Origin: Henriciella mobilis
GTDB lineage: Bacteria > Pseudomonadota > Alphaproteobacteria > Caulobacterales > Hyphomonadaceae
Assembly (NCBI RefSeq): GCF_003576315.1
Contig: NZ_QWFZ01000039.1
Span: 124,001-188,000, forward strand
Length of the DNA stretch: 64,000 nt
Reading direction: 5' to 3'
Shown here: positions 8,060 through 11,924 of the stretch, one piece after another
Layout of the letters: every line of letters begins with the position of its first letter
How positions within the stretch are numbered: the first letter of the stretch is position 1
Notes under the pieces: model-generated
What the model was told of the DNA's origin: nothing
The model's database searches: none
Seen by the model: the letters and a program-made list of their open reading frames with translations, nothing else
Translations under genes and position numbers: made by a program

Positions 8060-9216
8060 AACGATCCACCCGCCTCATTCATAACAGAGCGGGTACCGGT
8101 CCGAGACGAACGGTGAATCCACCGCTTGAGCGCGCCTCTACGGTCATTTTACCAGATGCTGCCTCCTTGTACTCGCAGAACCCCGCCTATGGCCGGATGG
8201 GACTGTCAGTTCATCAGGAGCTCGAAGCAGCGCTTTGCACGCTGGAAAAAGCCGATTTCACCAGGCTGACTCCGTCGGGCCTAAGCGCATGCGCCGTTGC
8301 CGCCGCAGCTCTGGTCAAGGCAGGTGACCGCATCCTGGTATCAGATTCCATCTACGGTCCTTCCCGTCGCTTCTGTGAGCGCCGTCTAAAGCGCATGGGA
8401 GTTGAATCTGAGCGCTTTGACCCTCGAAATCTGGGTCAGATCGAAATGCTCATGTCTGAGGGCGCCGCCGCAATTTTTCTGGAGTCGCCGGGCTCGTTGA
8501 CATTCGAAATCTCGGATACGCCCGCGATCGTTACCCTTGCGAGGGCACACAACGTAAAAACGATAATGGATAATACGTGGTCTGCCGGTGTCTTTTGCCA
8601 GCCGCTCGACCTCGGTGTCGACGTCTCGGTACAAGCCTTGACCAAGTATGTTGTTGGTCATGCTGATGCTTTTGGCGGCGCAGTCATGACAAACGATCCC
8701 GGCATCGTGCGGGAAATTCGAGACCTGACGGAGGACTGGGGCATCTCAATCGGGCCCGATGACGCTTATTCAGCCCTCAGGGGCACCAGGACGCTCGAAA
8801 CCCGCCTCTCGCAACATCAAGCCTCGGCGCTCCAGCTTGCGAATTGGTTGAGCGGCGTGCCAGGCGTCAACCAGGTTATCCACCCTGCCCTGCCGTCGCA
8901 TCCCGATCACGCACTTTGGCTGCGCGATTTCAGCGGCAGCTCCGGCCTTTTTGGCTTTCTGCTCGATGCTTCAAACCAATCAGAGCTCGATGCCTTTCTT
9001 GGTGCGTTGGAACTATTCAAGCTCGGCTTTTCCTGGGGCGGCTTCGAAAGCCTCATTATCCCTTGCGATGCGCAGCTTACGCGGTTGAAATCCGATTGGA
9101 CGTCCGAGAAAAACGGACAGCTGTTACGCGTTCATGCAGGCCTTGAGGACCCTGACGATCTCATTGCCGATTTTCAGCGCGGTTTCGATGCACTAAGCCG
9201 GAAAAAAAATACTTGA
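8056..9216 (+). CDS. metC: Cystathionine beta-lyase
   Basis: This PLP enzyme of the Cys/Met metabolism family cleaves cystathionine to homocysteine, pyruvate and ammonia. It has 386 residues: the N-terminal TRLIHN and VNPPLERASTVILP segments, YGRMGLSVHQELE, and the PLP lysine in ALTKYVVGHADAFGG at residue 197. The C-terminal half has the family motif FKLGFSWGGFESL. It starts by an ATGA overlap with sseA. With cysK and sseA it forms a set that can make cysteine, move sulfur and feed methionine synthesis. A cystathionine gamma-lyase function cannot be excluded by motif reading, but SWGGFESL and overall resemblance favour MetC. Confidence 0.9.
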   Translation: MKRSTRLIHNRAGTGPRRTVNPPLERASTVILPDAASLYSQNPAYGRMGLSVHQELEAALCTLEKADFTRLTPSGLSACAVAAAALVKAGDRILVSDSIYGPSRRFCERRLKRMGVESERFDPRNLGQIEMLMSEGAAAIFLESPGSLTFEISDTPAIVTLARAHNVKTIMDNTWSAGVFCQPLDLGVDVSVQALTKYVVGHADAFGGAVMTNDPGIVREIRDLTEDWGISIGPDDAYSALRGTRTLETRLSQHQASALQLANWLSGVPGVNQVIHPALPSHPDHALWLRDFSGSSGLFGFLLDASNQSELDAFLGALELFKLGFSWGGFESLIIPCDAQLTRLKSDWTSEKNGQLLRVHAGLEDPDDLIADFQRGFDALSRKKNT

Positions 9217-9239
9217 TTTGAGGCACATTTTTACATATT

Positions 9240-9598
9240 TCCACCGCCGACAAGCAAGCGAGCTACGACGGTCCCGAAAGGGCGTCAGTACGGGTGAGCC
9301 CAACTGTCTTCACTTCATCACTGGCCGAAAGCCAGTCATGCATGCCGAGGATACTTGGATGACGCCCAACAAGTTCGCTTTTGCGACGATGCAGAGCCGT
9401 AAGGATGTCGCGTTCGACACCGGCCTCTATAATTATTATGATCGGAAATTCGGGGACTATCGGGCCGCTATTGCGGAACTCATAAGGCCCTAGCGGGCTC
9501 GCGCCCGCCGAACCATGCCGCGTTTGATCCGTTAGTGGATTGAGCAGTCAATGAGTTCACTGGCGAACTGCCAGTTACAAATCCGAATCTTTCCGATC
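9240..9598 (+). ncRNA. Structured leader of the ornithine decarboxylase gene, resembling the alphaproteobacterial speF motif
   Basis: The 382 bases between metC and the decarboxylase hold a GC-rich, hairpin-rich block beginning near CTACGACGGTCCCGAAAGGGCGTC (9261-9284), then a hairpin ACTGGC/GCCAGT (9320-9336). A 44-codon ORF and a hairpin GCGGGC/GCCCGC (9493-9508) that starts on the last base of its stop codon follow. A second ACTGGC/GCCAGT hairpin lies at 9559-9575. Known: a conserved RNA motif named speF precedes ornithine decarboxylase genes in alphaproteobacteria. The block looks like that motif, but a covariance search was not possible. The two hairpins with identical arms can exchange partners, which suggests a switching leader. 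Confidence 0.65.
9359..9493 (+). CDS. Small leader ORF (44 aa) upstream of ornithine decarboxylase
   Basis: The ORF starts MTPNKFAFATMQ and is rich in Phe, Tyr, Arg and Lys, with a TGLYNYYDRKF stretch in the middle. The ATG at 9359 follows CGAGG with an 8-nt spacer. In-frame ATGs at 9338 and 9218 would extend it, but the latter runs through the structured leader. The stop (TAG, 9491-9493) leads straight into the GCGGGC hairpin. Enterobacterial speF is controlled by a leader peptide that stalls ribosomes on ornithine. A similar role is a guess based only on position and composition. No homologue is recognised. Confidence 0.45.
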   Translation: MTPNKFAFATMQSRKDVAFDTGLYNYYDRKFGDYRAAIAELIRP

Positions 9599-10786
9599 AT
9601 GTTCAAGTCTGATTACGCCACATTGGCGCGTCCCGCCATTCTTCCCGATTCCACAAACCGCTCCGGCCTTCCGGCTTTCGCGAGCGTGGGAGACGTTCTT
9701 CGCGCTTATGAAGGCGACGATGCCATCTTTGTCCTGTATCCCAAAAAGATCGCGGCGGCAGCGCGAACATTCCTGAACGGATTCCCGGGGAAAGTTATGT
9801 ACGCCGTTAAGGCGAACCCGCACCCGACTGTTCTGAAGACGTTGTGGACGGCGGGCGTTCGGCACTTTGACGTCGCCTCGACCCGCGAAGTCGATCTGGT
9901 GAAGGCAATAGCCCCGTCTGCGAAGCTGTTCTTCATGCATCCTGTAAAGTCGCGTGCGGCCATTCGGCATGCTTATGCCGAGGGTGTTCGCGATTTCTCA
10001 TTCGACTGCATCGACGAACTTCATAAGATTCTCGAAGAAACTGGCTATCCAGGCGACCTTAACCTCCATGTTCGTCTTGCATTGCCAAAAGGCGATGCAG
10101 TCATGCCGCTTTCCGGCAAGTTCGGTGCTGATCGCAGCGAAGCCGTAGACCTGTTGACGTCCGCCCGGCCACACGTGGCGATGCTTGGCATGACGTTCCA
10201 TGTTGGTTCGCAATGCCTGAATACCGATGATTATGGCCGTGCTCTCGCCTGGGCGAGCTCAATCGCTGACGAAGCCGGAGTTGAAATCGACTCAATAGAT
10301 TGCGGCGGCGGCTTCCCAGTTGCTTATCCTGGTATGTCTCCAAGGCCGATGAGTAATTATTTCTCGGCCATAAAGGAGGCTCTCGCGGTTCACGGCTTTG
10401 AGGACATACAAGTCCTCGGAGAGCCTGGGCGCGCGTTGTGCGCCCAAGGCGGCTCGACCCTTGCCCGTGTTGAGCTTCGCAAGGGCGCCGATCTTTATCT
10501 GAATGATGGAAGCTACGGTTCACTGTTCGATGCAGCCCAGTGCGCCTGGAAGTTTCCGGTGAAACTTCACCGTTCAGCGCCCCGCGAAGCGGATAACAAC
10601 ACTGCATTCCGTTTCTTTGGGCCTACCTGTGACAGTCTCGATGTCATGGAAGGGCCGTTCGAACTGCCCGGAGATGTTGAAGAGGGCGACTGGATCGAGA
10701 TTTGCCATCTTGGTGCCTACGGCCAAGCCCTGGCTTCCCGGTTCAACGGTTTCTTTTCGGAGACAACTGTCGCCGTAATGTCCTAA
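9599..10786 (+). CDS. Ornithine/lysine decarboxylase, alanine-racemase-fold (type III PLP) group
   Basis: This is a PLP decarboxylase that makes putrescine from ornithine (or cadaverine from lysine), the first step of polyamine synthesis. Motifs of the eukaryotic-type ODC family are present: YAVKANP with the PLP lysine at residue 71, FDVASTREV, MTFHVGSQ, DCGGGFPVAYPG, GEPGRALCA, and the partner-subunit cysteine in FFGPTCDSLDVM at about 344. The C-terminal HLGAYG completes it. Starting at 9599 gives 395 residues. An in-frame ATG at 9551 would add 16 residues encoded by a hairpin. Neither has a clear ribosome binding site, consistent with translation control by the leader. A deoxyhypusine-synthase-like gene follows 106 nt later. 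Confidence 0.9.
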   Translation: MFKSDYATLARPAILPDSTNRSGLPAFASVGDVLRAYEGDDAIFVLYPKKIAAAARTFLNGFPGKVMYAVKANPHPTVLKTLWTAGVRHFDVASTREVDLVKAIAPSAKLFFMHPVKSRAAIRHAYAEGVRDFSFDCIDELHKILEETGYPGDLNLHVRLALPKGDAVMPLSGKFGADRSEAVDLLTSARPHVAMLGMTFHVGSQCLNTDDYGRALAWASSIADEAGVEIDSIDCGGGFPVAYPGMSPRPMSNYFSAIKEALAVHGFEDIQVLGEPGRALCAQGGSTLARVELRKGADLYLNDGSYGSLFDAAQCAWKFPVKLHRSAPREADNNTAFRFFGPTCDSLDVMEGPFELPGDVEEGDWIEICHLGAYGQALASRFNGFFSETTVAVMS

Positions 10787-10892: not shown

Positions 10893-11924
10893 ATGAACGC
10901 ACCCACAAATCGCAAAGCAGAGCTACTCAGCAAGCCAGTCGAACACGTCGATATCACCAAATTCGACGCTCGTCCGATAATCGAGGCGATGGGCAAGATG
11001 TCCTTCTCCTCAAGAGATGCCGCTCGCGCCACCGAGATTTTCAACATGGCAGTCGAAGACCCGGACTGCTCGATCATCCTCACGCTTGCAGGTTCCACGT
11101 CCGCCGGCGGCTGTATGCATGTCTATCGCGATCTCGTGAAATACGGACTAGTCGACTGCATCGTCGCCACCGGTGCTTCAATCGTTGACATGGATTTCTT
11201 CGAGGCACTTGGCTATCAGCACTATCAGGCACCTGAACAAGTCGACGATAACACGCTTCGCGATCTCTACATCGACCGGATCTACGACACGTTCATCGAC
11301 GAGGAAGAACTGCAGGCCTGTGATCACACGATCAAGGACATCGCCGACAGCCTTGAGCGCCGCCCCTATTCTTCCCGGGAATTCATCTGGGAAATGGGTA
11401 AATGGCTCAAGGAAAACGCCAAGAAGAAGGATTCCCTGATCGAGACCTGCTACGATCACCATGTTCCAATCTTTGTGCCGGCATTCTCGGATTGCTCAGC
11501 AGGTTTTGGACTGGTCAAACACCAGGTCGAAAACCTCGGCAACTATATGTCTATCGACAGCGTCGCAGACTTCCGTGAACTGACCGATGTGAAGATTGCG
11601 GCAGGATCTACAGGCCTTCTTATGGTCGGCGGCGGCGTCCCCAAGAACTTTGTCCAGGACACTGTGGTTTGCGCCGAAATTCTCGGCAAGGAAGTCGAGA
11701 TGCACAAATACGCCGTTCAAATCACGGTAGCGGACACTCGCGACGGCGCGTGTTCGTCCTCGACGCTCAAGGAAGCGGCAAGCTGGGGCAAGGTGCAGAC
11801 CGTGTACGAGCAAATGGTCTTTGCGGAAGCAAGCACCGTGATACCGCTCCTCGCTTCAGCATCCTGGCACAAGGGCGAATGGAAGAAACGCAAACCAAGA
11901 GAGTTCGCGAAACTCTTCCTTTAA
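10893..11924 (+). CDS. Deoxyhypusine synthase-like protein (probable polyamine aminobutyltransferase)
   Basis: Bacteria have no hypusine, so bacterial members of this NAD-dependent family are thought to transfer the aminobutyl group of one polyamine to another amine, for example to form homospermidine. The 343-residue protein keeps the family core: TLAGSTSAGG, LVDCIVATGASIVDMDF, MVGGGVPKNFVQ, and EAASWGKVQ whose lysine (about residue 300) matches the catalytic lysine of deoxyhypusine synthase. Coupling to an ornithine decarboxylase, which makes putrescine, supports a homospermidine synthase-like role. A guanidino-substrate variant is also possible. The start follows AACCCGATTCCGGAGTCCCC with GGAG. 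A strong terminator lies just downstream. Confidence 0.85.
   Translation: MNAPTNRKAELLSKPVEHVDITKFDARPIIEAMGKMSFSSRDAARATEIFNMAVEDPDCSIILTLAGSTSAGGCMHVYRDLVKYGLVDCIVATGASIVDMDFFEALGYQHYQAPEQVDDNTLRDLYIDRIYDTFIDEEELQACDHTIKDIADSLERRPYSSREFIWEMGKWLKENAKKKDSLIETCYDHHVPIFVPAFSDCSAGFGLVKHQVENLGNYMSIDSVADFRELTDVKIAAGSTGLLMVGGGVPKNFVQDTVVCAEILGKEVEMHKYAVQITVADTRDGACSSSTLKEAASWGKVQTVYEQMVFAEASTVIPLLASASWHKGEWKKRKPREFAKLFL

Follow-up and report, generated by a model that had tools for sequence, protein, structure and literature searches.

A conserved leader RNA with a small open reading frame and a candidate two-layer control of an ornithine/lysine/arginine-type decarboxylase gene in Henriciella

Introduction

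Arrest leader peptides (TnaC, SecM and others) are characterized by a conserved C-terminal core, fixed spacing, a variable N-terminus and a control hairpin nearby. A short upstream open reading frame (uORF) is also found in front of the enteric decarboxylase gene speF, whose product belongs to another fold than the Orn/DAP/Arg decarboxylases. According to the available part of the Salmonella work (PMC6386406), translation of the uORF orf34 acts there against Rho and against hiding of the ribosome-binding site, a hairpin is located downstream of the orf34 stop codon, and the leader structure is said to conceal the ribosome-binding site of the decarboxylase gene. In Mycobacterium tuberculosis ppe2, as described in the available part of PMC11260477, a B12 riboswitch masks the ribosome-binding site of a uORF (uPPE2), and the gene requires translation of this uORF. 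For the alphaproteobacterial speF RNA, the available part of PMC1273637 describes conservation that sets in close to where the RNA begins, followed by a variable-topped stem and then a long bulged stem-loop, and reports no measurable binding of ornithine, lysine, diaminopimelate, putrescine, cadaverine or spermidine.

The leader considered here is located in the marine genus Henriciella (Hyphomonadaceae), in a stretch of 64,000 nucleotides called the window below, between a gene of Cys/Met metabolism and a decarboxylase gene. A preliminary description had presented it as a speF-like leader with a small ORF and two hairpins with interchangeable arms. All coordinates are those of the window, and all features are on its forward strand.

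Results

Layout and Distribution of the Leader

The product of the gene upstream of the leader is a PLP enzyme of Cys/Met metabolism. The gene downstream (9599..10786; PF02784 and PF00278) encodes an ornithine/lysine/arginine-type decarboxylase of the Orn/DAP/Arg fold, to which the nearest solved chain is 2plj, a lysine/ornithine decarboxylase. A putative promoter, TTGATT-17-TATTTC (9213..9241), keeps its CTTGA in 20 aligned loci and is absent from the list given by the consensus scan; the RNA start is expected near 9249.

R1, the covariance model built from the Henriciella leader, matched once per genome in 27 of 29 genomes of the same genus. Among the 105 genomes of the family searched, none of the 76 from outside the genus had a match, and among 385 genomes of the class the only match was in the own genome; searches of more than 40 genomes, these two included, were run with stricter filters, at which weak matches are lost, and the absence outside the genus is to be understood at that sensitivity. 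The decarboxylase gene was found downstream of the leader in all 27 cases (20 by tblastn, six by the translated start, and L080 by the start pattern and the bases themselves), and the two genomes of the genus without an R1 match are also without this decarboxylase, one having only a 29% match and the other none at E 1e-20. A leader-pattern scan of named genomes retrieved 17 stretches (14 from Henriciella, two from “Hyphomonadaceae bacterium” and one from Hyphomonas sp.), 14 of which are identical to a same-genus locus over the compared leader stretch. The 15-base start motif alone occurs, among the 385 class genomes, in the own genome and two others.

The neighbour gene at 10893..11924 (NF002699, above cut-off), which points to a use of agmatine, adjoins the decarboxylase gene in 13 of 13 clade A loci. 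No neighbour of this type was found in any of the eight other leader-keeping genomes tested, and hence the leader goes with the decarboxylase. In two relatives a cobalamin riboswitch is situated downstream of the decarboxylase gene (L015, 2967-3096; L017, 2964-3096).

Three alignments were used. Alignment A1 comprised 20 of the 23 unique leaders (L007, L008 and L011 equal L006 over that stretch); alignment A2 added four divergent leaders, giving 24 distinct ones (L058, L061 and L063 duplicate L048, L049 and L046); and alignment A3 contained 12 of the 13 clade A leaders, L008 being omitted.

Structure of the 5′ RNA Domain

The 5′ RNA domain spans 9249-9362. Its elements are a putative stem P1, in which GACA (9249..9252) would pair with UGUC (9305-9308); hairpin P2 (9265..9289), with a conserved base (ACGAC/GUC-A-GU) and a variable, covarying tip; hairpin P4 (9316..9340), which is hairpin 1 of the preliminary description extended by CAU/AUG; and a predicted sequestor, whose 5′ arm CCAACUGUCUUC (9300..9311) includes the UGUC common to P1 and whose 3′ arm GAGGAUACUUGG (9347..9358) contains the ribosome-binding site of the uORF.

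Over the 24 distinct leaders, 98.7% of cells are paired (0 of 500 shuffles as high), and 10 of 29 pairs changed on both sides versus 5.8 in shuffles (again 0 of 500 as high; slid versions gave at most 4), these shuffle controls of pair counts being ones that ignore kinship. The number of further pair types, 24 versus 21.9 in shuffles, was reached by 52 of 500 of them and shows no clear excess. All of the two-sided covariation is carried by P2 (four of nine pairs) and P4 (six of nine); it is in these two helices that the compensatory changes, which the preliminary description had proposed to look for in an alignment of relatives, were indeed found. We are thus dealing with a conserved, structured 5′ leader RNA with covariation, as is expected of a riboswitch.

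The sequestor pairing between CCAACUGUCUUC and GAGGAUACUUGG keeps all of its 11 pairs in each of the 24 leaders, its only substitutions being from A-U to a G-U wobble, while its single mismatched position varies. No pair of the sequestor (24 leaders) or of P1 (pairs counted on 20) changed on both sides, so covariation proves neither of them. P1 is only 4 bp long; its GACA and UGUC strings are invariant in the 24 distinct leaders. In folding predictions the probability of the sequestor exceeds 0.5 in 21 of 24 leaders, the exceptions being L004, L010 and L014, of which L004 favours P1 instead; the Shine–Dalgarno (SD) sequence of the uORF has a mean predicted unpaired probability of 0.07 over the 24 leaders, and the predicted P1 fold is less favourable than the ensemble by 0.6 to 7.6 kcal/mol. 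Since UGUC is common to the 5′ arm of the sequestor and to P1, the two folds would be mutually exclusive, as in translational riboswitches. The aligned sequences themselves establish the conservation of the leader, the covariation of P2 and P4 and the keeping of the sequestor pairing.

The folding energy of the domain is unexceptional in the window (z -1.34 versus shuffles, 21 of 200 as good) and in a second leader (z -0.57), and strong in the third leader analysed (z -3.17). Outside the counted helices, the domain contains the invariant stretches GACA.G.AAGCGA.C.ACGAC and GUACG.G..AG.CCAA. These observations bear on another explanation, namely, that the 5′ domain binds no ligand and only tunes initiation at the uORF (to a fixed low level, or in response to temperature or Mg2+), the peptide alone being in control, as for orf34/SpeFL. 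That two of three leaders are about as stable as shuffles and that the sequestor and P1 lack two-sided changes agrees with such a role, as does the Salmonella leader, which in the available part of PMC6386406 works with a uORF and a hairpin past its stop codon. However, the long invariant stretches exceed what a plain sequestor needs and resemble an aptamer core, and we consider the explanation possible, though not probable.

One more feature of alignment A2 is the co-occurrence of bases at columns 17, 19 and 53, where GAGCU goes with a distant U and GAACC with a distant G (for example, L018, L077 and L081 versus L015); it may reflect a tertiary contact or shared descent.

The Small ORF and Its Peptide

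The uORF (9359..9493) has 44 codons, MTPNKFAFATMQSRKDVAFDTGLYNYYDRKFGDYRAAIAELIRP, and is preceded by GAGGAT; its SD match is 4 nt long in 25 of 27 leaders and 3 nt long in L077 and L081. For 13 ORFs of clade A and five of clade B, the ratio pN/pS was calculated (L014, L018, L046, L048 and L049, whose length or frame end differs, were excluded, and L065, L077, L080 and L081 did not enter the count). In frame, it equals 0.32 in clade A (13 ORFs), 0.26 in subgroup A1 (four, including that of the window), 0.24 in subgroup A2 (seven) and 0.12 in clade B/B49 (five), versus 0.88-2.67 in the other two frames. Over the last 29 codons it falls to 0.15 in clade A, 0.08 in subgroup A1, 0.15 in subgroup A2 and 0.07 in clade B, which is the synonymous-biased substitution that the preliminary description had named as a check of the small ORF; the between-clade value for the C-terminal part is 0.55. 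The N-terminal part is nearly free to change in clade A (0.82) and in subgroup A1 (1.07) and is constrained in subgroup A2 (0.39) and in clade B/B49 (0.20). Judging from this substitution pattern, the uORF is selected as coding for a peptide.

Twenty of 20 peptides align without gaps from D20 to E40, so the core has fixed spacing; M1, D20, K30, Y34, A36 and E40 are invariant among them, and the conserved C-terminal core reads DVAxDT...K..DYxAAVAE. The peptide thus has a C-terminal core that is under amino-acid selection in the translated frame and is of fixed spacing, as in arrest peptides, and the distribution of constraint along it fits a nascent-chain effector. The end of the peptide is variable (AELIRP, AELIRA, AELIRR, AEPI, AEPL, AELSRPCGR and others), which makes a fixed arrest at the stop codon unlikely; any arrest would be expected during elongation near AAVAE. 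At its end the uORF carries the rare codons ATA AGG, whose frequencies are 6.1 and 5.1 per 1000 over 43 window frames of at least 200 codons each that were chosen mechanically. An essential role of this pair was considered and rejected, since it is kept in 19 of 27 leaders and missing in L018, in the AEPI group and in the divergent leaders. The window peptide contains no consecutive arginines; among the 27 leaders Arg-Arg is confined to L011 and L080, where it belongs to the peptide tail.

No family in Pfam or NCBIfam corresponds to the peptide. A search of PHROGs gave only two weak matches, to families of unknown function (best E 0.024), and a search of the PDB a single one (E 0.19). In the order set of 220 genomes, the peptide profile matched 17 genomes of the same genus and, weakly, one of another genus; the latter match (E 0.008, within a frame of 305 residues) was taken as chance.

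The selection on amino acids and the fixed length of the core would also be in keeping with a trans-acting small protein, e.g., an antizyme-like decarboxylase inhibitor, the RNA merely regulating its synthesis. Such a product would hardly require the stop codon to be always at a hairpin (see below), and the N-terminus of the peptide drifts in clade A, especially in subgroup A1, though less in subgroup A2 and in B49. Besides, each matching genome has one match, and it is always located at the leader. We therefore regard a protein acting in trans as improbable.

From the uORF Stop Codon to the Decarboxylase Start

The GC hairpin GCGGGC-TCGC-GCCCGC (9493..9508) shares the last base of the TAG codon that ends the uORF. 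In 27 of 27 leaders the stop codon is close to the first base of this hairpin's 5′ arm, being at most 10 nt ahead of that base or 11 nt past it (positions were determined by script in 23 leaders and by eye in L005, L008, L011 and L014), and in L014, L077, L080 and L081 it is within the hairpin. With the stop codon so placed, a ribosome finishing the uORF must disturb the hairpin. An intrinsic terminator at the GC hairpin was considered and rejected, as a scan of 9150-9700 found none.

The 3′ region is exceptionally stable in the window in comparison with shuffles (z -3.18, one of 200 as good). In clade A, and only there, the end of the uORF takes part in a predicted long-range helix, P7, in which GAACUCAU (9476..9483) pairs with AUGAGUUC (9551..9558), i.e., the last uORF codons GAACUYAU pair with a downstream AURAGUUC-like string; in 12 clade A leaders 95.8% of its cells are paired, and one pair changed on both sides. 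Hairpin P6 (9521..9545), seen in clade A folds, lies between the stop hairpin and P7. Hairpin 2 of the preliminary description (9559..9575) is likewise a feature of clade A only (85% of cells paired, 12 leaders), and clade B has neither P7 nor hairpin 2. In the consensus fold of clade B, UGAAC at the uORF end pairs with GUUCA at the decarboxylase start; we give this pairing no weight because both strings are constrained as codons.

The start of the decarboxylase gene at 9599 is conserved (ATGTTY by pattern in 27 of 27 leaders) and has no ribosome-binding site, the complement match to the anti-SD before it being at most 3 nt in the 27 leaders; the preliminary description was right on this point. 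Of 12 aligned clade A leaders, only four have the in-frame ATG at 9551. The uORF stop and the decarboxylase start are separated by 74-116 nt, a distance that we consider too long for simple reinitiation. Coding selection on the uORF, its stop at the hairpin and the absence of an SD sequence before the decarboxylase are established at the level of sequence comparison. Selection on the peptide and covariation in the RNA together bear out the earlier view of a combined peptide-and-RNA leader.

The elements that this view was built on, namely, both hairpins, the 44-codon ORF with GAGGAT upstream and the GC hairpin, are all present where it placed them; its mechanism was that the arms of hairpins 1 and 2 swap partners across the uORF. 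Hairpin 1, ACTGGC-CGAAA-GCCAGT (9320-9336), and hairpin 2, ACTGGC-GAACT-GCCAGT (9559-9575), are together with the GC hairpin the only perfect 6-bp hairpins with a loop of 3-8 in 9217-9598, and among the 124 such hairpins of the window they form the sole arm-sharing pair within 400 nt. The identity of the arms is therefore unusual within this one sequence. In the arm table (12 of 13 clade A leaders), hairpin 1 keeps five or six of its own six pairs in 12 of 12 leaders, and the same is true of pairing between its 3′ arm and the 5′ arm of hairpin 2, as an exchange would require; but the reciprocal combination falls to three of six pairs in five of the 12, and both six-base arms are identical only in the window's leader. 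Cross-pairing is only slightly better for arms taken from one genome than for arms from two (p 0.026 and 0.085 in a permutation of 10 leaders, with kinship not corrected), and in clade B no hairpin 2 with arms of this kind was seen. On the basis of the cross-pairing and permutation tests the exchange is not supported, and we give it very little credence. Competition between the sequestor of the uORF ribosome-binding site and the 5′-terminal GACA/UGUC stem is an alternative structure with better support.

Relation to speF RNA and to Other Decarboxylase Leaders

The label speF-like did not hold. The speF family model RF00518 has no match in the window at the gathering score, nor in the own genome, nor in 9000-9900 even at E up to 10, nor, with E allowed up to 1, in 18 further loci of the genus. 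The search itself works, since it matches 14 of 385 class genomes, 12 of them over the cut-off. In the reverse direction, R1 was run on 20 loci (13 of the 14 speF loci and seven of the 12 loci from other genera) and gave 51 matches of chance level at E up to 10 (best E 0.093), none of those below E 1 being in a leader on the right strand. On the strength of the Rfam scans and of this reverse search, membership in speF was rejected. The leader might still be a diverged member of the extended speF element of alphaproteobacteria, given that the downstream gene family is the same and the layout is as that described for speF in the available part of PMC1273637; against the failure of RF00518 in the own genome and the 18 further loci and the chance-level matches of R1 on 13 speF loci, we hold this to be very improbable.

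An ACGACG box is common to the speF leaders and the Henriciella leader. In 12 of 13 speF loci it is at the same place, with conserved-looking sequence further upstream (in L031 it is another copy; L021 was skipped). The shared box was set aside as chance, as it is not at the RNA start in the speF loci and R1 is unmatched there. By eye, several of the loci L022-L034 have, 3′ of the RF00518 match and before the decarboxylase start, a hairpin-like block with a CUCC loop (GCGYCTCCAWCGC and variants).

In 12 genomes from outside the genus, the best decarboxylases show 43-51% identity to that of the window and have a different leader. These loci (L083-L094), which come from elsewhere in the family and order, share in 12 of 12 cases a conserved leader, GGCGGAC ... 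CTAACGCC, with a variable insert, in which CTAACGCC is mostly followed by a GGGTTTAA-like box. With E allowed up to 0.5 it matches nothing in Rfam, and it is a candidate second leader outside that collection.

Discussion

Proposed Mechanism

We propose that the Henriciella leader is a cis-acting control element of two layers, in which synthesis of a leader peptide depends on an RNA switch and a ribosome at the end of the uORF opens the decarboxylase gene; we see the chances of this reading as about even. In the default fold of the first layer, CCAACUGUCUUC would pair with GAGGAUACUUGG, and the ribosome-binding site of the uORF would be hidden. In the other fold, the 5′-terminal GACA would take UGUC from the sequestor, and the uORF site would be freed. 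A signal would shift the balance between the folds; it is probably a small compound from the arginine/ornithine/polyamine pathway. In the second layer, the uORF would be translated, and the C-terminal core of its peptide would probably slow ribosomes or arrest them close to the ORF's end. In this position a ribosome would cover the last codons and melt or block the stop hairpin and, in clade A, P7. The decarboxylase gene, which is without its own ribosome-binding site, could thereby be expressed owing to the opened structure, to protection from Rho, or to both. That uORF translation is needed for the decarboxylase is proposed by analogy with Salmonella orf34-speF and M. tuberculosis ppe2; what we infer is that the fold switches, that a ligand is involved, that the ribosome is arrested and that the effect is positive.

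Several observations count against the two-layer reading: the ordinary stability of the 5′ domain in two of three leaders, the three of 24 leaders that disfavour the sequestor, the lack of two-sided changes in the sequestor and P1 and the number of further pair types close to that in shuffles, the variable end of the peptide and its N-terminus, free in subgroup A1 and constrained in subgroup A2 and B49, and, finally, the absence of P7 and hairpin 2 from clade B.

A more specific version would be a dual sensor. A new aptamer class, so far observed in Henriciella alone, would bind one metabolite of arginine, ornithine or polyamine metabolism and thereby license translation of an arrest peptide, which would sense another metabolite inside the ribosome. 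We put this forward as a speculative and rather unlikely extension; if it is true, synthesis of the decarboxylase requires both conditions at once. If the two-layer reading is true, the leader is an AND-gate occurring in nature and a small system in which to study the coupling of RNA fold and nascent peptide; with so many distinct leaders in the genus, informative tests are easily chosen.

Comparison with Known Systems

In comparison with peptides of the TnaC/SecM type, the Henriciella peptide is alike in the fixed spacing of its core, the more variable N-terminus and the hairpin nearby, and differs in that no known arrest motif was recognised in it. The speF RNA is similar as a leader of decarboxylases of this fold in alphaproteobacteria and different in that the Henriciella leader does not match its covariance model.

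With M. tuberculosis ppe2, as far as the available part of its description goes, the locus shares a folded 5′ domain over the ribosome-binding site of a uORF and a downstream gene without an SD sequence. In ppe2, however, the ligand and the riboswitch class are known, and the uORF and the gene overlap, with reinitiation, whereas in Henriciella they are 74-116 nt apart.

The Salmonella/Escherichia coli orf34 (SpeFL), again judging from the available part of the source, is likened to the Henriciella uORF by layout and not by peptide sequence: a short conserved uORF stands before a decarboxylase gene (for ornithine in enterics; the Henriciella substrate is putative), and a hairpin just 3′ of the uORF stop is present in the Henriciella leaders too. 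The differences are that consecutive Arg codons are absent from the window uORF, that Henriciella has an extra 5′ RNA domain predicted to conceal the uORF's own ribosome-binding site, and that its decarboxylase is of the Orn/DAP/Arg fold.

The preliminary statement that no combined peptide-and-RNA switch had been reported stands for this particular leader, of which no account was found in the open-access literature, but not for the joint use of a uORF and RNA switching, which is described in the available parts of PMC6386406 and PMC11260477. As far as we searched, the RNA, the peptide and their order are new, while control of a polyamine decarboxylase by a uORF plus RNA is already known. Decarboxylases that start polyamine synthesis are thus placed under leaders unrelated in sequence: a uORF in enterics, speF RNA in other alphaproteobacteria, apparently an RNA plus a uORF in Henriciella and, in its sister genera, apparently yet another conserved leader before the decarboxylase.
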